DNA of 64,000 bases from Meandrina meandrites. Lineage: Eukaryota > Cnidaria > Anthozoa > Scleractinia > Meandrinidae. The notes beneath the pieces are model-generated. The model did no database searches. It saw nothing but the letters and a program-made list of their open reading frames with translations, and was not told the origin of the DNA. The stretch lies in assembly GCA_963693305.1 (NCBI GenBank), contig OY855912.1:10669501-10733500 (forward strand), read 5' to 3'. The position numbers and the translations under genes are program-made. Shown piece after piece: positions 40 through 48,400 of the stretch (the first letter of the stretch is position 1; every line of letters begins with the position of its first letter).

Positions 40-3000
40 AAAGCGTTGAGCCTTCACCTCCTTCCAACCTGTCAATTATGAAAGAGTGCGGGTTTAAGCC
101 CTTAAATCGGTATCAGAAGGAAGCAGTGAAAGAGGCGCTTGTGAAGCCTTTTACCCTTGTCCAGGGTCCTCCAGGTAAATAAGAGTACTACGAAACTCGT
201 ACATTTCATTTCTATATAAAAGTTTATTTTGTTATATCGCCATCGTGATTCTCTATTCCAAAGACTGTGCTACAGACAATATGATATGTTCTTTAAGTGT
301 TCATATAGTCTTACTAACCAAGCAGGAGGGTCATACTTTGAGAGTGTCGGACTTGTCAGTACCGATCAAGAACAGCGAGGGCCAAGCACGGTTTCGAGCG
401 AGCTCAGTTAATAATAACTTAATTATGTACGAGCAGTAGAAACTTTACCCGGTCCAATACTTAGAAAACCTTAAATGAATAATCTGAAGCACTCCGATTG
501 GTTGATTTTAGTTATAAGCCCTCTGAACTCTTTAATCGTAAGGGGGAAGGGGGATGGGAAGAGGAATTCCACCGTCGCCTTAACATGATCTTGGGACGTC
601 GTCTTTTCCTGGTTTTGTTTGTTTGCTTGTTTGTTTGTTTGTTTGTTTGTTTGCCTGCTTCCTTGTTTGTTTGTTCTTGCCCTTGTTTTGTGCTTTACTG
701 ATAAATTTCACTTTTTATTGGGGTTGTTATCTTCATAAAGAATTAGCCAGAACTAGAACTAGCGACACCGTTTCCATCATTCGATGTCCGCGTTCACTCC
801 GTTACCATGATGTATTGTCTAAGAGAGTGTTTTTGTCCATTTGAAGGTACTGGTAAAACTGTGACAGGCGTCCACATAGCCTACTGGTTTGCGAAACGTA
901 ACAAACAGTTGCAATTGCAAAAGGACCAGGAACCTGTCGAAGTCGTTCTGCCAGACAGTGCAAACAAGCCTAAGGCGCCCCCACGAGTCATTTACTGCGG
1001 ACCCTCCAACAAGTCCGTAGACGTGGTAGCTAGTAAGTATACAAGCGTTTGATGATACGCAGACAAAAACATGAACCGTTTCTACTCGCTTCCCTAAATG
1101 TATTTAAAGCTGCCATTGATTGAACGTAAGTATTGTTAAATGCGTACTTCATGTTTGACTGGCCAAGGTTATATGACATTTCCATATTAATTACTTCATA
1201 TTGGACAGAATTAGGTGTGTTTTGGTGAACTTTTATCAATCAGGACACTTAATGATGCCTATCATAATGAACGTGCATCTCATTAGCCTTCAATCCTGGA
1301 CATATCCGAGGAACATGACAGATCAAGATTTGCTTAATCCCAGAAGTAAAGGTTTTTTTCAAAACTAGTACTTGATTTCTTTTTTCTTGTCTTTTCCCAA
1401 TTATTGACAAGTGCCTTGCTTAAAAGTACACACAACTGACCCCGGCCATTCCGGACCACTCAATCCGGAGTCCAGCGCACGAACCATTTGTCCACAGCGC
1501 CTCTCAAAAAATCAAATTATGTAGTATGTTCTAAGTAAATACTTGAATACAACTGAATTTTTGAATTAATTGTTCTATCTCATCCCCTAAAGAATACATG
1601 CTGAAAATTCCCGAACTCAAGATCATCCGCGTGTATAGCGATCGTAGGGAACAGGCAGAGTTTCCAATTCCTAACCAACGTCAACAACTAAAAAATTCAA
1701 CCGACGAAGATGATCGAATGTCGAATGAAGAAAATGAACTCAAGACAGTGTCGCTGCATCACATCATTCGCAGTGATCAGTGTCCGTTTGCCGATGGGCT
1801 TCGAGAATACGAGCGTAAATTTAAAGCTGATGAGAAGGACGGTCTGAGGACCAGTGACAAAGAAGTGGAAGAATACCGCAAAGTAAGACTTTTTTGATAT
1901 GCCGAATTGTTATCCGATACTATCACGTTGAATTGCACATCGTACTACTATGGGGGTCTACTATCTGTCGGTGTGCCATTAAAGTGTATATGACATGAAA
2001 AATATTTCCTGCTTATTTGAAGGACCTTTCAAAATTCAGTAGAATGGCGTTTTTCGTTTTGAAATATCTTTTTTTCGTTTCAGAGATACTGACATGTTTC
2101 TATTATGCGAATTAGGTCAGTGATGACGTCATAAGATTTGCAACTAAAAAGTGGTAAAATACTGAATAAACAATATCTCTAAAAGTATTAAAGCAGTGGT
2201 CTTGAAACTTGGCACCACAGATTTACATCACAAACGAAAAAAAATGACACCCTTTGGGCTGTTGCCATGGCAACAGTTTTGCCGCTGGTGCTGTCTCAAT
2301 AAAAACTGAAATTCCCAGTTTTTGTGACAGCCTTTAGAATATGAGAATTTAGTTATATACTCAATTCATCTAAGTTCATCTATCCAACCATCCATGCCGT
2401 TCACTCTCTCGTAGACTCACTTACTTATTTATTCCTTCAGTTAGTCATTTATTCATTCATTCATGAATTTTTATTGTTTTTTTACGTGTTTGTTCATTCA
2501 TTCATTTCATTTTGACTTACTTACTCACTCACTAACATAATATTATTTAAATTATTTATTTATTATTTATCTATTCAACAGTTAATTGGCACGGCCGAGG
2601 ATTGGGCACTTAAATCATTAGGAGCTCAGATTATCTTGTGCACGTGCGCAGTTGCTGGTATGGCTAGAATAGCCAATTCCTGCCGTGACAACATCAAGCA
2701 GTGCATTGTGGATGAATGCGGTATGTGCATGGAACCTGAATCACTCGTGCCAATCACGTGTTCAGGAGTACAGCAAGTGGTTTTGATTGGTGATCACAAA
2801 CAGTTACAGCCGGTAATTAAGGACAACCTGGCAGTGACTCTTGGTTTGAATGTGTCTATGTTCGAAAGGCTTTCTGAGCGAGCTAAAATGCTGGAGCTGC
2901 AGTACAGAATGGTAAGAGAAGAACGTTCTTAAAAGGCAGTGTAAAAGGGCTACGTCACTCAGTGATAGGCAACAGCTGGCCAATGGTTATTGTGTTAACT

Positions 3001-6000
3001 AAAGTATCGCAGAAACGGCTAAAAACTGTAGAAGAACTCAAAAGAAACACAGAAAAGCCAAGAATGGGCATGGATAAATAAAATCGGAGAATATTAAGAG
3101 CGAATGTCTGTAAGAATCAAACAAAATCGGAAAAAAGCGGCAAAAGTGTGAAAACTCAAAATTGTTCAAACTCTGACTGTAAGTAGTCCATAATGAGTTA
3201 TTCATCACCATGCAATTTATTTGTCAAATAACTCTTTCTTTCGGCAGGAAATGACGATCATAAATTTCACGGCCAGACACGGGAAAATTCGACTTGAAAA
3301 TTAGCGGTTTTAAAGCAAACCACTTGCCTGTACTATAAAACCTGAAGACATCCACTTGTTATCAGCTTATTCTACATCTTTTCCAGATTTTATTCTATAA
3401 TTTCTATGAAGTTTAAATAAATTCATGACACTAAGAGAGATCTGAAAGAAATCCCACTCTTTCTCTATGGAAATGACAAGGTAAATTTAAGAGATTATTT
3501 ACCATACTACCTTTATCTCAAATAAACTGATATTTTGGAAATAAAGTCAGGAAGAAATGGCCTTTCAATTGATGGCACTTTTTGTCTGGGGAAATTAAAT
3601 CGTTCTCTCTGAGAAAGCGCTAAAAATCACGAAATCAAGCAAATAAGAGATTGCGTGACAGACGTGACAAAGGTGGAAATTGCGATTTTCAAATATTTTG
3701 GCCCTATAAACTCCACAAAAATAAAAAGATCGTATTTCTACGCATGAATTTGCCATTCATCAACTTTTTGTTGAAAAAAAAAACAGCGTTTGATTTCTAT
3801 TTAAGCTTTCCCTCCGTTTTGCGTGCAAAGTGTACCCAGTTTATATCATTTCTTTCACTTGGATGTTGTGTTATGTGGATGCCTTTGTGAGCTAATAAGT
3901 AAATTATTAATGCTATCACTAATTTTAGAAAGTTGCTAATTCATATCAATCTACCCACCGTACGGATTATATATGTATGTCGATTCATATGGTAGAGAAA
4001 ACCCTACAACTGAAGTTTGAGAGCAAAGATGAATTTTTCCATCTGACTGTAACTATGAGACATCTTTTGATATGGCAGATTTATCCCAAACCTGCAAAAA
4101 TCAAAGCAACTTCCAATCTGCCGAAGCCCCTCTTGGGATTTATGTAAGAATTTTTGGAAAGCCCCTTTGTGTTGCGTTATCTTTGGTTTCCAACTGATTA
4201 ATATGATTGTCACTGAAAAGTATTCTGTGGTTTTTGCCCTATGGAAAATTCTTTTTCGCTCAAAATGGACCAAACAGTTGTAGATCAAACATTTGCTTAT
4301 TAATTTATTCATGTTACCCGAGTGGCAGGCGAAATAATATAGAAATAATAAGATAAGTTTATTTATAGTTTATTCATGTTATGAGTGACACACAAAATAC
4401 TTACATAGCCAGCTTTTTCAAAGTTGTAGGCCCGTTTAACCGAGCCTCCTTTCGGGGATCTGGGAGTATGCTTCCTCGAGGAAGGTTTTTTTTTTTCTTC
4501 ATATAAAGACCGCTGAAAACGTGACTGTTTTCCTTTACTTTTGTCGATTTTTATTGTATTTTGACATTACCTAAATTCTAACATTTCACAATAGAGAATG
4601 GCACTAATTCTCACTCATTCCTAAATTAATGAACCATTGTGCATTAGACGGCTGTCACTTTGCTTCCGAGTTTTCACCCGTGAGAAAAGCCTTGATCTCA
4701 TCATGAAAGGGTAGTTGCGAGATATATTACCTGTAAGCGATACGTTAAAACTGAATTGATTTCCATTTCATCTATCTTAAAAGTGCTCAACCTGAATTGT
4801 TTTACTTGCACATTTTAAAAATACGTTGCTGAAAATATTGCCGGCCAGCCCTGGCTAATTTTTGTACTGGCCTGTACGTTAGCTATATATTAAACAAGGG
4901 CTACGCCGCAAGCGAGCCCTTGTTTAAAAACAGTCTACTAGGTATACCATGTCCACGTATCATAATGGCTGTTAAGAATTAAGCGGAAGGTTGGGCAAGC
5001 AGCTTCCTCCAATCCATCCTCGGAGACCCAGGGGCAGTTAGTGGGAGCGAAACGTAGTAAGCCGGGCAGAAATCGTAGCGGCAAAAGTTTTCTATAAAAG
5101 TGTAAGAGCCCCTGGGAAACGAGTCTCTCCAGACCATTTCCAAGCGGCTTTGCGAATGCTGGCTCCTGATTGAGCAAAAAAAATCCTTTGTATTATTTCT
5201 CCCAATCAGCGAATAGTAACTTCAGAGTCACTTTCGTGTGTTCTTACAAGGCAGTTATTGTATCGGCCATATTTTATTTTAATTAACATAAGATAGCCGA
5301 GAAATGTCGGAAGTCATTTCGGATGTCAGAAAGAAAAATATATCAACACATCCACCAGTAAGTTTTGTTTGGACCGATCAGATGTATTGTAAATATAAAT
5401 TGTGTCTTGTTTACCTGTGCAGTGCATTGAGGGCGGTTCGGCATACTCGTCTGGCCTGCACTGCGTGTATTTCTTTGCAGCACGGGAATATTCCAGTTGG
5501 CTGAAGTATCCGAAAATAAAAAGTATAAAAAATAAATTAAATGAGTGATTGATGTAAGATTGATGTAAGGTCTCAATTTTCTGAAATTTACTAGTACTGG
5601 CTTGTACGTTTGATTTTACATTTTTCTGACTTTATCTCAATATTTTTCGGCCGACTGCAATTTGTCCGCGCTGCGAGCATTGTCGCACGTGCCAGACGAG
5701 ATAAGACGAGTGTGCCGGACGGCCGCCAATGTGTCGCATACAGGTAAACAAGCCACTATTTCCTCTGATCAGTCCATATGACAATATCCGGGCAGATCTT
5801 GAAATATATTTCTTTCTGACATCTGAAATGATTTCCCGACTTTTTGTGGTTTTTGTGGTAAATTGAAATAGATTGCCGTGTAAGAACATACGAAAGTGAC
5901 TCTGAAGTACCTGTTCGCCGATTGGGGAAAATAATACAAAGGATTTTTTTGCTCAATCGGGAGCCAGAGTCGCTTAGAACTTCATGGTAAGTCAACATGG

Positions 6001-33400: not shown

Positions 33401-36400
33401 GATCCGAAAACGAGTGGTGACCTTGCGCAGCCAAGAAAACTAATTTTCGTTTTTTGTTTGAACGGATGGCGCTCGAAACATCACCTGCTTAATATAAATC
33501 TTACTTAGAAGTCCGCTTAATATCTATCATACTATCGTCCTGTTGTTTTATATAGGTACACCCTGAATAACACTCAGTTGCATGCTCAGTGGCACATTTT
33601 CGACGAGATGACTGGAATGAAGTGTGCCGTTGATGGTGAACTGTTTGGTGTTCTCTACCTGCAAGAGGAAGATGCACTAAGGCCTGATGATGCCGCAGGC
33701 CGCCTTCTGTACCGTAACGTCAGTTCTGTGTGGTTCCAGCTAGCCGACCGTGTCTCTAACAAAGTTTACGAAGCTCCTGTGGAGAAAGTGGAGAGTGAAT
33801 GCGTTGTGTTGAGGCTTTCGTCTAAGACGTGCTCCGACCTTAACCTATATGACACTTGTGATGCTGCTGTTAATGCCCAGTTCCAGCTGAACCGGTGGCC
33901 ACTTTGTCAAATGCACGCAGCTGTTGATAGGCTTACCAAAGGGCAGTTACGCCTTATTTTCCCAGAGCCAAGAACCGAAACTGTCAAAAGTGAAGTAAGC
34001 CATTATGTTCCTTATTTAACAATAATAAGCCTAAGATCATAGCTGATAATATGACCGAGTCCAGCTTCATGTTAGTGAGATGTTAGTTATTGTTTCTATT
34101 CACTTAAATTCGATATATAACTTGAATTTGATTTTCCTTCAAGAAGCATACCCATCACTAAGCTTCATTTCCTGTAGAGTAAAACTTTGCTCAAGCAAAG
34201 GACTGGATTTATTAAATCCGGAAGCCAATTTTTAATCCTAAAATGCAGTTACTATTACGGTTCGCGCTGCCAATGTATCTTAGGAGTAATGAGTATTAAA
34301 TATTAAATTCTAGATTAAAATCCGTTGGCAATGGCTTCTTGATGACCGGCTGAATACGAATCAAAAGAAAGTCATTGAGCGGATTGCATGTCCAGAGTAC
34401 AACGCCCCTCCCTTGGTAGTGTTTGGGCCTTTTGGGACTGGAAAGACGTTCACCCTGTATCAAGCTGTTCGTCTTCTGGTGCAGGTGGACAAATCTCATA
34501 GAATCCTGCTGTGCACCCATTCGAACCGTGCAGCAGATATTCACGTGGAATTGTTACATGAGTACCTGACTAAAAAGAACGGTATACCTGCAGCAAGGCC
34601 CTTGAGGGTTTATCAGCCTATGAGAAGGTAGTGTAAAATCTCATTTCTGCCTGACTGCCAAAGTAACTTCAATCGACCATACCCTGTTTTTCATGCAATC
34701 GATGAAACCCACTAAATAAATAGGTTAATCAATGCTAAATGCTTAAGCGGTTAACTTTTAGATTGCTGTCTGATTGATAAATGACGCCCGTACCATCGTA
34801 TTTTTGTGTTTCACAATACAACAGCCCCTTTACCTTAGACCTTCTTTACCACGACCCAAATATATTTTGCGTTATTACAAACCATTTTTGCCAAGTAACA
34901 TAAGTTTTTTTCTTTCATTACTAATGATAGATTAGAAACGGCATCCGAGATAGCCAGGAACTATTGTTTAATCAAAGATGACATGTTCGTGTTGCCTTCT
35001 CGCGATGATCTCGTTGAACATCGTGTAGTGGTGACGACGCTGAGTACATCGCAAGTGCTCCTTGATCTGCAAGTGTTACATGGATTCTTCACTCACATCC
35101 TTATTGACGAGGCCGCCCAAGCACTTGAACCCGAGGTGCTAACTCCACTGATCTTTGCAGGACCAAACACAAAGGTTGTCTTTACCGGCGATCACATGCA
35201 GGTATAGCATATTTAACTCTGATTGGGGCCCAGCCTCTCCAAACAAAATAGTGTACATGTTGTGATGGTAGATTTTTTACCTACTAGTTAGTTGTTCTAG
35301 GCCGGCAAAGCGTACGGATAACGAGTAGCTATCAGAGCTATTCTCTTTAACGTCAGTAGTCATATCAGCCCCTCTAGACATCTTTACCTCGCTTTCATGT
35401 TGCATACATAATGAGCGAATCTGCCTCGCTTTTGCGCTGAACCCTCTAGACATCTTTACCTCGCTTTCATGTTGCATACATAATGAGCGAATCTGCCTCG
35501 CTTTTGCGCTGAACCCTGTAGACAACTTTACCTCGCTTCCATGTTGCATACATAATGAACGGATCTAGCTCGTTTTCATGTTGTATATTTAATGAGCGAA
35601 TCTGCCTCGCTTTTGCGTTGAATGAGCAAACCTCGCTTTCATGTAAACTGGTCACGCAATGCGTCACGCGATCACAAAAATCACACAACAACAGTTTTGT
35701 TTGATAAAAATTTAATGTCAAAAACTCCTAAATGTACAATGCGGGAACGTATGCTGACAATCCTGCTGACCAGCGTCCCTCTACAAAAATATAATTCTGT
35801 CAACATTCCAGAAAACGTAATCAGAGGCCTCGGTATATAATTGTTCAGGATCGTAAGTTTCTACCGATTGTCTCATGTTTCGGCGTATTTCATCTTCGGT
35901 TTCGCCGAGTTCAACAATGACGAGTGTACCGTTGCTTGCGTTAAAGATTTCACCGTAATATTCCTCGTCGTTCCCTCGGCGCCAAAACGGACGATGGTGC
36001 CAAATTGTCCTGAATCGTTCTGCTAAAAAGCGAATATTGTGGAATGTAAACAAATTAAAATGCAAATCTTAGTAATTGTTGCTTCTCGATGCGAATCGAT
36101 AATCATAGTAAGTACTGAATAACTGTTCAGGATCGTGTTCAACAATGTAGTTTCCTACATTGGCTTCAATTTCATCTGAATCTCCCAACATAACAGTCAT
36201 TATAGATCTTGTTCTCGCGTCGATTATTTGTCCGAAATAAGTTTGCCCTCTCCGCCATAACGGTCGTTGTCTCCATAAAATCCACACGGTAGGGTTTTCT
36301 AGGACTGTTCATGAGAAAAGAAAGTGAAAATTATGTTTGGAAGTGTTCCCATCCGGCGTATACTTGGAAGCGATCGAAATGGTAAACGTAAATGTTCATG

Positions 36401-39400
36401 TTTTCTAGTACAGTGGAGGGATGTGACCCCAAGGAAACTGTCATTAAATAACCATCTAGCGCGTCTCGAATCTGGCCCATGAACTCATTATCATCTCTCC
36501 AAAGTGGGCGTTCCCTCCAAATGTCCCTTAGTCTTGCACGAAAATCGGGGGACAAATCGCCCGGGGGACTTGGCGGCGGAGTGTCTTCCAAAATTATTTC
36601 TTCGCTTAAAAGGAAAGATATATCCTCACCTTCAAAGTCGGTATCTTCTTGAACATCGGCTTCTTCGACCGTTGCGACCTCGCCTGTTTCCGTTAATCTC
36701 CTCCTACAGTGCGGACATTTTAATGGTTTGTTTTCCTGACGGCAGGTACCGATCCACGAAGTGAAGCAGTCTCTGTCGATTAGTTGATTGCAGCACTGAA
36801 GTGGCGAAGTCTCAGTAGCTTCCGAAAGACAAACTATACATCTGTTTTCGGCGATTTCTGCTATGGTTTTGCTTGTTTCTTTTCGATCGCTACGTTGAAC
36901 AGTTGAGAAATGGCGCTTTTCTTTCGAATTTGAAAGTTTGTTGGAGTTATTTTGGGAAGAGATCTATTTATGAACAGAAAGCCATTGAGGCATTGTAAGA
37001 GGGAATATTCAACCACAGCAAAAAGAACTGCTCTTTTGAAACAACAGCTTCACGTGCGTTAAACAAAACAGGGTTAATAAAGTGCGATGTGCGATGCATA
37101 AACAAGCGGCAAGACAAAATCGAATACTTTTTGTAATGGGTAAAAAGAACCGCCCCTTTGTAAAACCGTGTAAGAGGAAAGAAATTATTAGTAAAACGAA
37201 GTGCAAGACATTTAATTTAGCGTCGCGTTTTGTCTTGTGAACGGAAAGCCAACGCGCCAATGTTGTAAAAGTCAAGTTTTTTGAACCCGGTAAAAAGAAC
37301 TGCTCTTTTGAAACAACAGCTTCACGTACGTTAAACAAAACAGGGCTAATAAAGTACGATGCGCGATGCATAAGCAAACGGCAAGACAAAATCGAATACT
37401 TTTTGTAATTGATAAAAAGAACCGCCCCTTTGTAAAACCGAGTAAGAGGAAAGAAATAATTAGTAAAACTCATTAATTTAGCTTTGCGTGCTCTTTGTCC
37501 AAAGCAGCACTAAATGAAATATGATGCTGAAGAAGTTATGAACGTTGATCCTATAGAATTGCAATGTCCTGAGAACGTTGTCAGAAAAGAAGAAGAACTT
37601 ATGGACCTTGACTATGTAACTCGAGGTTGACTTCGAAGCAAGATGGTTTTCGCACTCCAAAGCGTTCTTGTATACGTTATGTTTGTTTTAGCTATGGTCC
37701 CCAAATGTTTTACGTTTGAATGTATCGGGAAAAGATGTCTTTGTATTGAGGAAATTAGCATCGTTGATTGCTCCCGAGCGGCTTTTGAGTCAACGCCTCA
37801 AACAAAGAAAAGAATAGTGAATTATACACATCTCTCTTTACGGCACAATCTATTGTGGGAAGTAAATTTTACTTTGATAGCGGAACAATTTCCAGATGTC
37901 AAAACTGTGGATATCAGAGACAATCCCATTCATTGCGAGGGAGTCGAAGGAGGTGAACCTTTTAAAGTCCTAAGCGATTGCGACGCGTTGAGGCCGACAA
38001 AGGGCCAAAGGACAACTGCACCGATTTCTTCTACGACCGAGCAATATCTCTTTCACAACCAGACGTAACCTTTGTACATCAACACTACGACTTCAGCCTA
38101 TACAGAGCCCAACCTTACTTCCAGTGTTTATTTGACCACTTAAATTACCAGTATTATTTTAATCCCGTTCATCATCATTTGTCTAAGGATTGTAGTAAAA
38201 CTGCTTATCAAGAGGCGCAGGAGACAACGAGGTGTAATGAACTCCTTCGAAATGATTTCTTTCAATTTGGAAACTTCTGATGAAGAGGAAGTCATCTTTG
38301 ACGCTACCGCACTGTAAGGAATATCTTTGAACATTTTAGTTTGTGTTTGTAAATAGCTTTCCCGAGTTGTTCCCTAGTAAATATCTTTCCCTAGTTGTTT
38401 GTAAATAGCTTCGTTTTGTTAAAAGTTGTTTGTAAATAGCTTCGTTTTGTTAAAAGTTGTTTGTAAATAAACAAGGTTTAAGTTATCAGTATAGCCCAAA
38501 TGACCATCTGTCGTTGGAACTGCTGGAACTGCTTTACCACCCCACGTTTAAAGCAAACCTCAGCAAAGTATGAGGGTCGTATAGGGGGGTCTCTGGCACG
38601 ATTCACGGATGAAAAAAAATAACGAATCACGGATCACGGATATTGACATTTCATTTTCTCGAATCACGAAAATAAGTACTCTTTTATCCCGTTCTCACGC
38701 TACAAATAGTGTTTGAAGAAATCAAAATTGATCAAGAAATTACGAAAATAAGAAAGAAACATATTTTTTTATCCTGTTCTTACTCTACAAAGAATGTTTG
38801 ACGTTGCGATAATTATACGGAAGTCACATTTGAGGTCTCGCGTCTTAAAATCACGCAAAATAAAGTCAATAAAGTGGTGAAATCACGAATATCGGTTATT
38901 AATTCAAGCTCTTCACGTGTCACGTAAAACTTTCCGGTCACGGGTCATGAAGAATAAATTTATTAAATTCACGTTTCACAGAAAATAAAATCAGCTAATC
39001 ACGCGTCACGAGAATACCCCTGTACGACCCTCAAGTATATATCTTTTGGAAGCTTAAGAACTGACGATTACGAAGACATATTCATTTGAAGTTGAAAAAA
39101 TATGGTTATACGAATGGAGCGCTTAACTTCCACGAGTACCGAGGTTCACAAATCGATTTCGTTTCCGGTCGGATTTGTACGGGAGAAAGCGTTCAACATC
39201 GCTATGTGTTCTTCACACCTTCCTCTATGTCGGGGAATATTGATTACTTGTCTGGTTTGTTTTTAACATGCAGTTGAATTGCGAGAGTTTAGAAAACAAC
39301 CATTTCCTTTGTTAAAATAGCCATAACTTTTGAAAGAGGAAAAAAATAATAAAAAAATTCCCCGGCACAGCCAATTATCGGGCGACGTTCGTGTCAAATT

Positions 39401-42400
39401 TCAGCGAAAAAGGTTTAAAACTCATTGAAAACGAACTTGAAATGTGTGCCACACTCTTCAAAATTTTGGTTTTCAGATACGACGAAAAATATACTTGAGC
39501 CGTTCTTCCGGCGTAATCACACAAGACGTGTGAAAATGATTACGCATTGATCGATGAAGTGAAGGCTCGTTGTAAGAGAATTCTTATCAATTACGCGCGC
39601 GTGTTCCACGCGAGTTCCCACGCGCACCCTTGGGGAAAAAACAGCGCTAAAGTGGCCTTCTTGGCCCTCCTGGCCTGAATGGCCCGAGAAATTTCGTTTT
39701 ATAAATCATTTTGTCCAGTTGGAATCAACCTTTCACTCCGTAAACATGAAGAGGAAATGTAAACACTGTCCCATTCCTGGTTGTGCTTCAAAATTTTTAG
39801 TTCGATTGGCAAATCATTTGGCACAAGTGCACGAATTATCCGAGATGGAGCGAAAGTATTGGCTGCAATTTGCTAAATTACAAAACACTAACATGATTCG
39901 CGTATATGACAAAGAGGCTGAACCTAAAACAATTTTTCTATAAACGCGAAATTGCAGCCAATACTTTCGCTTTTTTTTATAGAAAAATTGTTTTAGGTTC
40001 AGCCTCTTTGTCATATACGCGAATCATGTTAGTGTTTTGTAATTTAGCAAATTGCAGCCAATACTTTCGCTCCATCTCGGATAATTCGTGCACTTGTGCC
40101 AAATGATTTGCCAATCGAACTAAAAATTTTGAAGCACAACCAGGAATGGGACAGTGTTTACATTTCCTCTTCATGTTTACGGAGTGAAAGGTTGATTCCA
40201 ACTGGACAAAATGATTTATAAAACGAAATTTCTCGGGCCATTCAGGCCAGGAGGGCCAAGAAGGCCACTTTAGCGCTGTTTTTTCCCCAAGGGTGAGGTA
40301 AGAACGGCTCAAGTATATTTTTCGTCGTATCTGAAAACCAAAATTTTGAAGAGTGTGGCACACATTTCAAGTTCGTTTTCAATGAGTTTTAAACCTTTTT
40401 CGCTGAAATTTGACACGAACGTCGCCCGATAATTGGCTGTGCCGGGGAATTTTTTTATTATTTTTTTCCTCTTTCAAAAGTTATGGCTATTTTAACAAAG
40501 GAAATGGTTGTTTTCTAAACTCTCGCAATTCAACTGCATGTTAAAAACAAACCAGACAAGTAATCAATATTCCCCGACATAGAGGAAGGTGTGAAGAACA
40601 CATAGCGATGTTGAACGCTTTCTCCCGTACAAATCCGACCGGAAACGAAATCGATTTGTGAACCTCGGTACTCGTGGAAGTTAAGCGCTCTATTCGTATA
40701 ACCATATTTTTTCAACTTCAAATGAATATGTCTTCGTAATCGTCAGTTCTTAAGCTTCCAAAAGATATATACTTGAGGGTCGTACAGGGGTATTCTCGTG
40801 ACGCGTGATTAGCTGATTTTATTTTCTGTGAAACGTGAATTTAATAAATTTATTCTTCATGACCCGTGACCGGAAAGTTTTACGTGACACGTGAAGAGCT
40901 TGAATTAATAACCGATATTCGTGATTTCACCACTTTATTGACTTTATTTTGCGTGATTTTAAGACGCGAGACCTCAAATGTGACTTCCGTATAATTATCG
41001 CAACGTCAAACATTCTTTGTAGAGTAAGAACAGGATAAAAAAATATGTTTCTTTCTTATTTTCGTAATTTCTTGATCAATTTTGATTTCTTCAAACACTA
41101 TTTGTAGCGTGAGAACGGGATAAAAGAGTACTTATTTTCGTGATTCGAGAAAATGAAATGTCAATATCCGTGATCCGTGATTCGTTATTTTTTTTCATCC
41201 GTGAATCGTGCCAGAGACCCCCCTATACGACCCTCATACTTTGCTGAGGTTTGCTTTAAACGTGGGGTGGTAAAGCAGTTCCAGCAGTTCCAACGACAGA
41301 TGGTCATTTGGGCTATACTGATAACTTAAACCTTGTTTATTTACAAACAACTTTTAACAAAACGAAGCTATTTACAAACAACTTTTAACAAAACGAAGCT
41401 ATTTACAAACAACTAGGGAAAGATATTTACTAGGGAACAACTCGGGAAAGCTATTTACAAACACAAACTAAAATGTTCAAAGATATTCCTTACAGTGCGG
41501 TAGCGTCAAAGATGACTTCCTCTTCATCAGAAGTTTCCAAATTGAAAGAAATCATTTCGAAGGAGTTCATTACACCTCGTTGTCTCCTGCGCCTCTTGAT
41601 AAGCAGTTTTACTACAATCCTTAGACAAATGATGATGAACGGGATTAAAATAATACTGGTAATTTAAGTGGTCAAATAAACACTGGAAGTAAGGTTGGGC
41701 TCTGTATAGGCTGAAGTCGTAGTGTTGATGTACAAAGGTTACGTCTGGTTGTGAAAGAGATATTGCTCGGTCGTAGAAGAAATCGGTGCAGTTGTCCTTT
41801 GGCCCTTTGTCGGCCTCAACGCGTCGCAATCGCTTAGGACTTTAAAAGGTTCACCTCCTTCGACTCCCTCGCAATGAATGGGATTGTCTCTGATATCCAC
41901 AGTTTTGACATCTGGAAATTGTTCCGCTATCAAAGTAAAATTTACTTCCCACAATAGATTGTGCCGTAAAGAGAGATGTGTATAATTCACTATTCTTTTC
42001 TTTGTTTGAGGCGTTGACTCAAAAGCCGCTCGGGAGCAATCAACGATGCTAATTTCCTCAATACAAAGACATCTTTTCCCGATACATTCAAACGTAAAAC
42101 ATTTGGGGACCATAGCTAAAACAAACATAACGCATACAAGAACGCTTTGGAGTGCGAAAACCATCTTGCTTCGAAGTCAACCTCGAGTTACATAGTCAAG
42201 GTCCATAAGTTCTTCTTCTTTTCTGACAACGTTCTCAGGACATTGCAATTCTATAGGATCAACGTTCATAACTTCTTCAGCATCATATTTCATTTAGTGC
42301 TGCTTTGGACAAAGAGCACGCAAAGCTAAATTAATGAGTTTTACTAATTATTTCTTTCCTCTTACTCGGTTTTACAAAGGGGCGGTTCTTTTTATCAATT

Positions 42401-45400
42401 ACAAAAAGTATTCGATTTTGTCTTGCCGTTTGCTTATGCATCGCGCATCGTACTTTATTAGCCCTGTTTTGTTTAACGTACGTGAAGCTGTTGTTTCAAA
42501 AGAGCAGTTCTTTTTACCGGGTTCAAAAAACTTGACTTTTACAACATTGGCGCGTTGGCTTTCCGTTCACAAGACAAAACGCGACGCTAAATTAAATGTC
42601 TTGCACTTCGTTTTACTAATAATTTCTTTCCTCTTACACGGTTACAAAGGGGCGGTTCTTTTTACCCATTACAAAAAGTATTCGATTTTGTCTTGCCGCT
42701 TGTTTATGCATCGCACATCGCACTTTATTAACCCTGTTTTGTTTAACGCACGTGAAGCTGTTGTTTCAAAAGAGCAGTTCTTTTTGCTGTGGTTGAATAT
42801 TCCCTCTTACAATGCCTCAATGGCTTTCTGTTCATAAATAGATCTCTTCCCAAAATAACTCCAACAAACTTTCAAATTCGAAAGAAAAGCGCCATTTCTC
42901 AACTGTTCAACGTAGCGATCGAAAAGAAACAAGCAAAACCATAGCAGAAATCGCCGAAAACAGATGTATAGTTTGTCTTTCGGAAGCTACTGAGACTTCG
43001 CCACTTCAGTGCTGCAATCAACTAATCGACAGAGACTGCTTCACTTCGTGGATCGGTACCTGCCGTCAGGAAAACAAACCATTAAAATGTCCGCACTGTA
43101 GGAGGAGATTAACGGAAACAGGCGAGGTCGCAACGGTCGAAGAAGCCGATGTTCAAGAAGATACCGACTTTGAAGGTGAGGATATATCTTTCCTTTTAAG
43201 CGAAGAAATAATTTTGGAAGACACTCCGCCGCCAAGTCCCCCGGGCGATTTGGCCCCCGATTTTCGTGCAAGACTAAGGGACATTTGGAGGGAACGCCCA
43301 CTTTGGAGAGATGATAATGAGTTCATGGGCTAGATTCGAGACGCGCTAGATGGTTATTTAATGACAGTTTCCTTGGGGTCACATCCCTCCACTGTACTAG
43401 AAAACATGAACATTTACGTTTACCATTTCGATCGCTTCCAAGTATACGCCGGATGGGAACACTTCCAAACATAATTTTCACTTTCTTTTCCCATGAACAG
43501 TCCTAGAAAACCCTACCGTGTGGATTTTATGGAGACAACGACCGTTATGGCGGAGAGGGCAAACTTATTTCGGACAAATAATCGACGCGAGAACAAGATC
43601 TATAATGACTGTTATGTTGGGAGATTCAGATGAAATTGAAGCCAATGTAGGAAACTACATTGTTGAACACGATCCTGAACAGTTATTCAGTACTTACTAT
43701 GATTATCGATTCGCATCGAGAAGCAACAATTACTAAGATTTGCATTTTAATTTGTTTACATTCCACAATATTCGCTTTTTAGCAGAACGATTCAGGACAA
43801 TTTGGCACCATCGTCCGTTTTGGCGCCGAGGGAACGACGAGGAATATTACGGTGAAATCTTTAACGCAAGCAACGGTACACTCGTCATTGTTGAACTCGG
43901 CGAAACCGAAGATGAAATACGCCGAAACATGAGACAATCGGTAGAAACTTACGATCCTGAACAATTATATACCGAGGCCTCTGATTACGTTTTCTGGAAT
44001 GTTGACAGAATTATATTTTTGTAGAGGGACGCTGGTCAGCAGGATTGTCAGCATACGTTCCCGCATTGTACATTTAGGAGTTTTTGACATTAAATTTTTA
44101 TCAAACAAAACTGTTGTTGTGTGATTTTTGTGATCGCGTGACGCATTGCGTGACCAGTTTACATGAAAGCGAGGTTTGCTCATTCAACGCAAAAGCGAGG
44201 CAGATTCGCTCATTAAATATACAACATGAAAACGAGCTAGATCCGTTCATTATGTATGCAACATGAAAGCGAGGTAAAGTTGTCTAGAGGGTTCAGCGCA
44301 AAAGCGAGGCAGATTCGCTCATTATGTATGCAACATGAAAGCGAGGTAAAGATGTCTAGAGGGGCTGATATGACTACTAACGTCGCTCGCTTTTCAGCAT
44401 TCATATCTGAAGGTCATTCGAACAGCACTCTCTCCATACAAGAAAAAACTTTAGCGGGGAAACGTGCAAAGCTGATTTGTTTTGATCCTTTTAATTATTG
44501 TTAGACAGATCAAATCGCGAAAACTAATTAGAAAACACTCTTCCCTCTACTAGTCAGAGATATAAAAAATATTTCTTTTTAAAGAATTGTTGTTGTTGAC
44601 CATTTTCCTCGCAACTTTTTTTTAAGATGAGCCCAGAAGTTTACTCACCTCAAGCAAGAAGTTTGGGCCTCCAAAAGTCACTGGCTGAGAGGTTGTTTGA
44701 CGTTTATGATAAGCATAAGACTGAAGGGTCCAATGGCAATCCAAACGAAGATCCCAATGTCTTGTTTCTGACAGAAAATTATCGATGCCATCAGGATATC
44801 CTACAATTTCCTTCTGACAACTTCTATGGAGAAAAACTGGTCGCTCGCGGACATCAACCAGCACACCCGAAATTCGGTCCTTTGTTATTCTTCTCCGCGC
44901 GTGGCAAAGAGAAGAAGGAGCATGACAACTCATACATCAACTTATCTGAAGTTTACGAAGTAGTCAAGAGGGTGGAGGAGATTGCAAAAAGTTGGCCTTC
45001 TATTTGGGGTCCCAAGAAACTATCTGATATAGCAGTGCTCTCCTCTTATCGTTACCAGGTAAATTTTCGAACAATTTCATATTGCGCAGTATTACATTAT
45101 ATATTTACCGCCGTCGACATCACCAACACTATCCTATCTCGGCTACCTTCTTGTTTTATCTAAATTGATAATTTTTTGAAAAACTTGATACGTTTGACCT
45201 GCTAAAAAGCGTTAAGTCGAGCCGCCGCTAACGGACAGCTAGCTCTTGTAGGTGGATATCTCACGTAAGCGGACACTTGGTGAAGGTCACAGTCACATAG
45301 AAGTACTACATTTGAACCTCCCAAAAGCGGATATCTCTCCTAGACGGAAAAATACCTTTTCAGCTCCCAGTGATATTCGGTTACGGGAAGTCGACTGTAT

Positions 45401-48400
45401 TTATTATTCATACACAAAATAGAACATTGTCGCTGCTAGTTTTAACTTGTGCATTATTAATACCTACAGGTACAAGCCATACGAAACAGCCTACGAAAGA
45501 ACAGAGACCTGGCGGATGTAAAGGTGGATACGATTCATAACGTCCAAGGTAGATTTTACTCATCCTTAAGTTTCAATCAGTTGCTGTAAGGACAACGCCA
45601 AGTCGATCGGTTACTTGGTATTAACCCCCTTAACTTGACCGCAGGGGAAGGCCATTTTGCTTCAACAAATGGCTGACGCTTGGAACGACAGCTTTTCTAA
45701 ATTCAGTCGCCGACTGAATTTAGAAACGCTGTCGTTTCGTTTTGGGTTATTTACCTATGTGCGTCAGCTTGAAGTTGATAATGAACTTAGTGCATGTTTA
45801 ACCTGCGTACCCACGCAGCAATTAATAACTTTGTTCCCAGCAGTTATTGGTGTCAGAAAAGGTAGCGTATAAATAATTACTTGCATTCCATTTCAGGGGA
45901 AGAATTCCGGGTACTTTTCATCAGTACTGTTCGTACATTTCACACTTGCAAGCCTCAACAGGACGAATTATGTTCCAATGGATCTGATCGACAATTGTAT
46001 TGGGAATTTCTGTCAGATCCAAAATTACTGAACACTGCCGTGACTCGAGCAAGGTGCTTGGTAGCTGTTGTTGGAGATCCTGTCTCGCTCTGCACAGTAG
46101 GAGAATGTCGGAGCCTCTGGAGAGACTATATCAAGAGATGCAACGAGAGAGGGGGGCTTCACGGCACAACAGTGGAGGAGCTAGATAAAGAAGTAAACGC
46201 ATCTATTGCTAGCATCGAACTTAACCCAAAGGCACAGCCATTCGTCCCACGGTTTTCACAGACGCCGGAGAAAAGTTCCACTGTAGACGTGACTGGAGGA
46301 AGAAAAGACGAAGGTGACCAAGAGGCCTTGGAACAGAAAAGACGAGTTGCAAACACAGGGGAAGCCCAACTATTGGAACAAAATGGGAAGGAATCACAGC
46401 ATCTTCTTGAAATTAGTGGAAACGTAACGAAGAACGATAGCCTGGATGGAAAAAATGATCCCAACGTTAGCGCCAAGGCTCAGGACCTCGAAGAAAAAGA
46501 AGAGGAAGAAGCTGACGACGATATTGCTGAATCGGGGGACTTCCAAGATAACCTTCTTGAGGATGAGACCATATTTCCCAGAGATATGGACGAAATTATT
46601 TTGGCGTTTGTGAAAAAGTGCGAGGAAACGTTACAGATGGATGCACAAGGAACATCAATGTTTCAAGATTCAGACTTTCCTTCACTTCAAACAGCGAAAG
46701 ATATCAAATATCGACCTACCAATGAAGTGCAACATGTTCCATTCAAGGGTGATGCTGACATAAAAGATCTTTTCCCAGAAGTACGAGTTGTAAACGGTCG
46801 CGTCGAAGTTCGTCTAACAAATATTGGCTTTTATACCTCTCCCTCCGAAAGGGCTCAGCAAATCATGATTTCCACCAAGCAACAGGAATTCTTGGATCCA
46901 TCGGTCTTATTAAAGCTTCTTAAGGATGAACCACAGAAATACGTAGCCTGCAACCTTCGGCTTAGTCCAGAAAAGTCTCAGGTAGGATATGCAGAAATAG
47001 AAGACACCAAGACACCAGCCATTCATATCAAGGGAAGGGTCCGCCAAGCATTCGATAAAGACAAGGTTGTTGTGGAGTTGGCTGAAAAGAAACCTCGTTC
47101 GAAGGCCGAAGACAGCGAGCCGCTAGTCCAGGGAAAGGTCGTTGGTAAGTATATGCAGTTCGTTTACTACGATTATCGTTTAAAATGCAGCAACGTTTAG
47201 AGATTCTAAACGGCGGTAAATTTGTTAGGAAACAAGCAACAAAACCAAGGAAAATGACCTTTAGGCGTGACGAAATCGGCTTAAATTACGTTCTCCTTAA
47301 CTTTGTAAATTTTGAAATTTAATTACTTCAGATGTCTAGGTGTTTGGTTAAATTTTGGTTTAATCAAGGCCGAGTCAGCGCATGAAGGTAGTTATGAGTT
47401 CAAAAGGGTCGGTACTGTAAGTACATATATAGCGAAGAACAATAGGGCTCATGGCGGGTGTTGTGCCAAAATTGATGCAAACAAGACGCATTCTTTTAAA
47501 TTCTTTAGTATATACGCAGTTGTCGCTTACTTAGGACGATTTATTTTCTCTTTATTCAGGTGTATTGGAACACATCATAAGTCCACACGAACGCCAATTT
47601 GTATGTACTACAGATTATGAAAATCCTGCCTTAATGATACCTATCAACAAGTCGGCCACGAAACTGGTCAACCTAACCGACAAGAGCTGCAAAGACATTC
47701 CAATCTACAAAAAGGATCAGAATGACAGGGCAACAAGAGTCAGGATGATGAAAAGAGAGAAGGTCCTTAGTGGGAAGTACCTGTTTGTTGTCAAGTACCT
47801 TCAATGGAGAAGAGACTTCAGGTACCCTCTCGGAATTGTCGTGAGAACTCTGTCCAGAGGAGAAGATTTGAAAAGTAGCATGGAAATTGCTTACGCTGAG
47901 CATGGTATCAGAACAGTTTTTAAGGAAGAAACCAGGAAATATGTCAAGGACAACTTCCCACCAGAATGGTCCATTCCTGAGTCAGAGCGCAGTAATCGAA
48001 TCATGGTTGCTAAGGCTATTACCATTGATCCTCCCACGTCCTTGGATCTTGATGACGCACTGACGATAGAGAGGGCATCTCCTTCTACCTTCGTGGTAGG
48101 AATACACATTGCTGACGTCAGTTTTTTTGTCAAACCAAACAGCCCCTTAGACCATGAAGCTTTTCTACGTTGCACCTCTTATTACCCTGGTGAAGGACAA
48201 GAAAATGTCCCAATGCTTCCACGTGAGCTGAGTGAAAATGTTTGCAGTCTCTTGCCTAATCAAGATCGGCTAGCCGTGTCTGTGTTTGCCACCCTAGACG
48301 ATGAAGGAAGGATTGTTGCCGGGCCAACTATAAAACGCACGATTGTCCGATCCTGTTGTCGATTAAATTACGCTGAGGCTCAAATGGTTATACGTGGTTC

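Follow-up and report, generated by a model that had tools for sequence, protein, structure and literature searches.

Polintons (Mavericks) are bounded by AG ends and 6-bp target duplications. It is widely assumed that they are copied as linear, virus-like DNA primed at its ends, and this assumption is based mainly on their gene content. Snap-back defective genomes, i.e., inverted duplications of one end, are produced by adenoviruses and other protein-primed linear DNAs. The Polinton gene set has been described (PMC4028283, PMC11071308; both in part). In the open-access literature, with subscription journals mostly outside it, none of the top-ranked titles and abstract openings dealt with palindromic or snap-back Polintons, and the head-to-head and tail-to-tail arrangements in the accessible part of PMC12721341 refer to gene order, not to palindromic elements. 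Here, we analyzed a palindrome in a 64,000-nucleotide stretch of Meandrina meandrites DNA (the window; G000:C10:10669501-10733500). The searches covered one assembly of a 551-Mb genome, whose contigs are designated C1, C2 and so on. We conclude that the element is probably a palindromic, non-autonomous Polinton derivative that arose by fold-back during replication started at one end.

The first-pass annotation had described two inverted arms of about 4.5 kb, AG termini and a flanking AACGTC, and all of these were borne out. Positions 35355-44378 form a single palindrome of 9,024 bp with AG ends, which is composed of the following parts (window positions):

35349..35354, unstranded: left copy of the target duplication, AACGTC, 6 bp
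35355..39944, + strand: left arm, 4,590 bp, running inward from the terminus AGTAGTCATATCAG
39945..39975, unstranded: central loop, 31 nt
39949..39971, + strand: templated insert in the loop, 23 nt, exact reverse complement of 39849-39871
39976..44378, - strand: right arm, 4,403 bp, inverted copy of the left arm
44379..44384, unstranded: right copy of the target duplication, AACGTC, 6 bp

The arms are complementary at 99.8% across 4,066 bp and at 100% across 320 bp. Compared with the left arm, the right arm has one 72-bp tandem unit fewer and is further shortened by 113 bp close to the centre and by 2 bp. The same terminus is present at both ends, with a direct AACGTC immediately outside each. 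When aligned with its own reverse complement, the palindrome pairs along 98.7% of its length, which rules out chance symmetry; two non-palindromic elements with the same terminus (C12 and C2b) pair along 7.6% and 7.8%. The entire element is an inverted duplication of one end around a small, non-terminal centre of 31 nt, as in a snap-back genome.

The 151-bp window terminus has at least 58 matches genome-wide, and these bound 15 elements; both counts are lower bounds, as the best candidates alone were scored. The 15 elements comprise the window copy, a second palindrome on C9, five long copies of a family that we call A (19.6-36.1 kb), two family A deletion derivatives of 9 kb, and six copies of a family called B (9.9-11.5 kb). 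All 15 start with AGTAGTC, an exact 6-bp direct duplication flanks 12 of them, and the terminus is 97-100% identical across the five family A copies. According to Pfam, the family A copy C3a encodes PolB (PF03175, 2.1e-30), an RVE integrase (9.6e-13), and a chromodomain; relatives of the ATPase-, protease- and capsid-like frames of family B are present in it as well. Copies C2a and C7 match the same protein set, and their PolB frames, like those of the deletion derivatives C12 and C2b, are 1,388 aa long. The ATPase was named from weak, sub-cut-off Pfam matches (Adeno_IVa2, Pox_A32, ~5e-4), and protease and capsid from gene order and the similarity between A and B. No Pfam family scored above the cut-off for the capsid- and protease-like frames of either family, and a PDB search with the family A PolB gave no match. 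Since the window terminus is carried by elements with PolB and integrase, these elements are Polintons and the palindrome is a derivative without these genes. This confirms the affiliation proposed in the first-pass annotation, with family A (PolB, PF03175, and RVE integrase) as the carrier of the same terminus. The palindrome has in common with these elements the 6-bp target duplication and the inverted AG termini. As the annotation had also stated, core Polinton genes are missing: the PolB, integrase, ATPase, protease and capsid-like proteins of families A and B had no match at E<=1e-5 in the window, C9 and C1 palindromes. Thus, the window palindrome does not itself contain the pPolB, RVE integrase, ATPase, protease and capsid genes of an autonomous Polinton.

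Several observations concern the two families as such. Copies of family B of about 10.8 kb are located at C6:31553613-31564408 (L025, L026) and C8:24905944-24916716 (L027, L028). The genes of this family are an integrase and the ATPase-, capsid- and protease-like genes, and the family A PolB was unmatched in two whole copies. It is possible that family B elements are satellites that borrow a polymerase. The family A derivatives at C12:18776547-18785755 (L019) and C2:46750378-46759290 (L020) have differing internal deletions and a 6-bp duplication each. These deletions took the capsid-like, ATPase, protease and integrase genes and retained the open 1,388-aa PolB frame, and the resulting gene set is complementary to that of family B. 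The family A copies at C4:28887729-28922171 (34.4 kb) and C3:40679605-40715719 (36.1 kb) probably contain large inner insertions. Terminus matches with no recognised partner end were found at C5:32966233, C5:3839844, C2:7587674, C5:12427350 and C2:2369132.

Other palindromic copies with different 6-bp targets, for which the first-pass annotation had advised a search, are indeed present on C9 (CATATG), C1 (CAAGAT), C4 (GTTTGT) and C3 (TATAGA). The palindrome at C9:29960412-29969685 is 9,274 bp long and is self-paired over 100% of its length at 99.6%. Its central junction is identical to that of the C10 palindrome apart from one base, and the same high-copy repeat is mirrored in both arms of both copies. 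The flanks and the target duplication are unlike those on C10. A common junction in different flanks is most simply explained if the palindrome formed once and was then inserted in this form at least twice. Long-read libraries are known to fail by yielding perfect palindromes, and a fold-back chimeric read or a mirrored contig could in principle produce such a structure. We regard an assembly artefact as extremely improbable, however, because two loci share a junction yet differ in flanks and target duplications, the two arms of each differ by single-nucleotide polymorphisms (SNPs) and indels, and three further palindromes have flanks and duplications of their own.

The turning point was then compared with asymmetric relatives. 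At the C10 turn, the inner end of the arm is followed first by the 23-nt inverted copy of 39849-39871 and next by the arm tip in reverse complement; the source stretch of the 23 nt ends 73 nt short of the inner end of the arm. The family B loci L025, L027 and L037 continue unbroken past this point. Judged from the sequence, a jump of a few tens of bases and then a full return is what would be left by two template switches of one growing strand. A different view would be that the long arms are terminal inverted repeats (TIRs) that were extended when element copies recombined or converted one another, as in elements whose TIRs are very long. This would be in line with natural TIRs of ~0.4-0.9 kb in a second terminus family and with the apparent exchange of ends and bodies between families. 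However, TIR growth would not be expected to leave a loop of 31 nt in which 23 nt are a templated inverted insert. Moreover, in end-to-end comparisons eight other elements with the same terminus paired over 0.15-0.6 kb, against pairing over 100% (C9) and 98.7% (C10) of the palindromes, and we consider this explanation very unlikely.

To follow the fate of the arms after formation, the two arms of the C10 and the C9 palindromes were compared over 4,400 gap-free columns, single-arm indels being left uncounted. Of 20 SNPs, 17 occur in a single arm (seven in the left and two in the right arm on C9, and four in each arm on C10) and three in both arms of one copy; none of the 20 is common to both left arms or both right arms. 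Two indels, of 31 bp and 1 bp, each affect both arms of the copy in which they occur. The shorter one lies next to a both-arm SNP, and merging it with that SNP gives four both-arm events. Three of the four could be polarized: two are derived in C10, one by comparison with L025 (L047 has a third base there) and the other by comparison with L025, L027 and L037, and one is derived in C9, by comparison with L025 and L047; the 31-bp indel remained unpolarized. Since a mutation hits a single arm, both-arm changes need copying from arm to arm, which may take place in a hairpin formed between two insertions or through conversion once the element is in the chromosome. In the C9 and C10 palindromes, the arms are thus kept alike, on the basis of a small number of events (four).

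Centre-proximal probes, one of which gave at least 44 matches with the best 40 of 145 candidates scored, led to a further palindrome at C1:10344378-10351345. It is 6,968 bp long, its 3.1-kb arms (99.45%) are separated by 775 bp, and its duplication is CAAGAT. Its terminus, AGTAGTAATAGG, is unlike the window terminus, and another high-copy repeat is located at mirrored positions. At its turn there is a 66-bp patch that weakly resembles both its own and related arms (73-81%, E 0.003-0.09), a less certain case than the insert on C10. The locus L047 (C1:41743501-41751000) contains a single copy of the inner C1 arm, without the repeat, and continues beyond the fold-back point into a PolB-like frame. 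This frame matches the family A PolB at 39.5% over 86 aa (E 5e-16), and Pfam gave no family above the cut-off for its two PolB-like frames. L047 also contains a 170-aa open reading frame (ORF) at 2592-3104, near an end of the second terminus family and without a Pfam match.

Ten elements or loci with the second terminus were examined. Of these, C1, L049 (C3:5064762-5070159, TATAGA) and L051 (C4:32511766-32517785, GTTTGT) are palindromes, self-paired over 89%, 85% and 84% of their length, respectively; the ten were chosen from a larger set of matches, so that this proportion has no meaning. L050 (C13) and the analyzed part of L052 resemble damaged palindromes, and L050 was not counted. The second terminus does not imply a palindrome, as L043, L044, L045, L046 and L048 pair at their TIRs only (0.4-0.9 kb). 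All five of these ordinary elements have an ATPase-like gene, which L049 and L051 lack. L043-L046 match the first 1.9 kb of the 2.6-kb arm of L051 on one side and the TIR alone (0.6-0.9 kb) on the other. The Polinton core proteins of families A and B had no match at E<=1e-5 in L049 and L051 except for the tail of a PolB-like frame, which is kept at both centres. In L049, one terminus is substituted (AATAGT for AGTAGT). The fold-back points of L049 and L051 differ and their loop is common but in opposite orientation, so that both may go back to one event with a later change. The idea that the C3 and C4 palindromes represent two independent events was dropped, since C14 has the C3 junction region and loops can flip, leaving one or two events. 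C14:12539153-12549685 itself was rejected as a clean asymmetric parent of these palindromes because the 6.4 kb analyzed contains inverted arms. Overall, we count three or more formation events. The clear insertions number five, and their 6-bp duplications all differ.

Two further observations were made around this family. Family B bodies lie near second-family ends or PolB-like remnants in the regions of C8:13151542, C1:18156828 and C3:4146181, and ends and bodies seem to have been swapped between Polinton families. At L051:1207-1716, an ORF for a 169-aa acidic protein adjoins GTGGVQEGYR-like repeats.

The exact ends bear on the question of where the fold-back took place. Fold-back repair or recombination of an element already inserted in the chromosome could have given a two-ended unit that was later mobilised in trans. 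Fold-back inversions have been described for yeast chromosomes (PMC7467729, in part), and we only infer the extrachromosomal form of the elements studied here. In addition, the junction common to C9 and C10 means that at least one insertion came after formation, and later mobilisation would trim an inverted flank. Nothing, however, would make a chromosomal fold-back end exactly at the terminal base, and an inverted flank is expected. Symmetry beyond the target duplication was found in 0 of the 5 clear palindromes: their flanks are asymmetrical, with 2-4 of 14 bases in agreement, and at C9 and C10 the symmetry includes self-complementary bases of the duplication itself. Since fold-back in the chromosome should bring an inverted flank, exact ends and direct duplications count against such an origin unless mobilisation followed. 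The palindromes also arose in two terminus families, and altogether we find a chromosomal origin unlikely.

We therefore return to fold-back during end-started replication, for which we propose the following course. DNA synthesis would start at one terminus of a linear Polinton and run inward. The growing strand would then switch template and turn on itself, and synthesis would return to its own start, resulting in a hairpin. Copying of the hairpin would give a palindrome of double length, in which one end is present twice and the other is missing. Integration would proceed via the RVE integrase of A or B acting in trans, with helper Polintons also supplying PolB, and the arms would be kept alike through passage via the hairpin. 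Thus, protein-primed, extrachromosomal replication, the provision of PolB and integrase by helpers in trans, and the upkeep of the arms in a hairpin are parts of the model that we infer. Protein priming is likely, as Polinton PolBs with a terminal-protein domain are described in PMC11071308 (in part). The snap-back reading of the first-pass annotation is supported with regard to a fold-back with exact ends, but its wording of direct evidence for protein priming was too strong. A bolder proposal, which we put forward only tentatively and hold to be rather doubtful, is that Polintons in this genome repeatedly yield snap-back genomes that act as self-maintaining satellites. These would replicate through a hairpin with repair of arm mismatches, rely on one family for PolB and on a different one for integrase and possibly capsids, and reinsert.

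The arms of the window palindrome are composed of parts from both families and contain the following features:

35355..37527, + strand: arm part matching the left end of family A Polintons at ~98%
35370..35622, + strand: subterminal tandem units of 72 bp, of which the right arm has one fewer
36331..36963, - strand: RING-finger-like ORF of 210 aa from the family A end (Pfam zf-RING_2 8.7e-4, below the cut-off)
37620..39946, + strand: arm part matching family B at ~94%, inserted repeat apart
37631..38068, + strand: ORF of 145 aa, a shortened relative of a 222-228 aa protein of the B element L025 and of L047
38572..39032, unstranded: inserted high-copy repeat of ~460 bp in the left arm, "MITE-like" being our own label
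39563..39943, + strand: ORF of 126 aa adjoining the centre, with related sequence in B elements, the C1 palindrome and L047
40775..41235, unstranded: ~460-bp high-copy repeat in the right arm, at the mirrored position of the left-arm copy
41739-42164, - strand: mirror copy of the 145-aa ORF in the right arm

The mirror frame of the 210-aa ORF in the right arm is interrupted by a stop. The ~460-bp repeat is mirrored in both arms and was therefore probably present before the arms were doubled. Repeats at ~36.9-37.6 kb, just before the join between the A and B parts, are found in both A and B ends. Of an asymmetric parent with unbroken sequence across the fold-back, only pieces were found for C9/C10 (A end and B interior), and only partial one-ended relatives for C1 and the second family. 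The first-pass annotation had called for a full element matching one end: elements with PolB and RVE integrase do share the terminus, but none matches the whole arm 35355-39944. Most simply, the direct parent was an A/B recombinant that is absent from the assembly.

Outside the palindrome, the window contains exon-like stretches of a HELZ2-like helicase upstream (34980-35201, AAA_11) and downstream (44627-47200, AAA_12 and OB_HELZ2), and the insertion site looks like an intron of such a gene.

Several points weigh against a fold-back during end-started replication. All evidence comes from one assembly, in which none of the elements found is a full parent of the C9/C10 arm; of 34 matches to a probe of 911 bp spanning the A/B join (window:37480-38390), 4 covered it fully, all of them palindrome arms. 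In L047, no terminus was recognised, and the innermost 0.6 kb of the L051 arm is absent from its one-ended relatives L043, L044, L045 and L046. Three of the 15 elements with the window terminus (A-C2a, B-C8a and B-C4) are without an exact 6-bp duplication. Finally, gene conversion after insertion could be the cause of the likeness of the arms, as the data do not separate it from passage through a hairpin.

If they are integrated snap-back genomes, the palindromes would be a physical trace of end-primed copying, which can be searched for in any good assembly and whose junctions can be tested. Such genomes also define a class of helper-dependent derivative, and the similarity between arms offers a route to asking whether a palindrome passes through a hairpin between insertions. 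If transcribed through, palindromic inserts would yield kilobase-long hairpin RNAs against the helper families.

Compared with known systems, the closest relatives are the Polintons themselves. Family A has PolB, RVE integrase, a chromodomain, ATPase-, protease- and capsid-like frames, AG termini and 6-bp duplications, and the palindrome has the same terminus; unlike them, it is without those genes and has two copies of one end. Foldback-type transposons have long TIRs of variable length around an unrelated centre. In contrast, the centre here is 31 nt long with 23 nt derived from the arm, and the TIRs span 0.15-0.6 kb in the eight other elements of this terminus that were compared end to end. 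The palindromes resemble adenovirus-type snap-back genomes in the symmetrical duplication of one terminus, in having no internal terminus and in the expected dependence on a helper. Those genomes are free or packaged, whereas the palindromes described here are chromosomal, have target duplications and, in at least one lineage, were inserted repeatedly. Adeno-associated virus (AAV) is not a Polinton but a parvovirus that primes itself from hairpin ends, and origin-dependent inverted-repeat amplification concerns chromosome segments and involves no element terminus, integrase or target duplication. The likeness to AAV is that subgenomes of this DNA virus take a snapback form from either end (PMC8235507, in part), and the likeness to origin-dependent inverted-repeat amplification is that template switching at a fork leads to inverted copies through hairpin-capped extrachromosomal intermediates (PMC4689423, PMC10766183; both in part).

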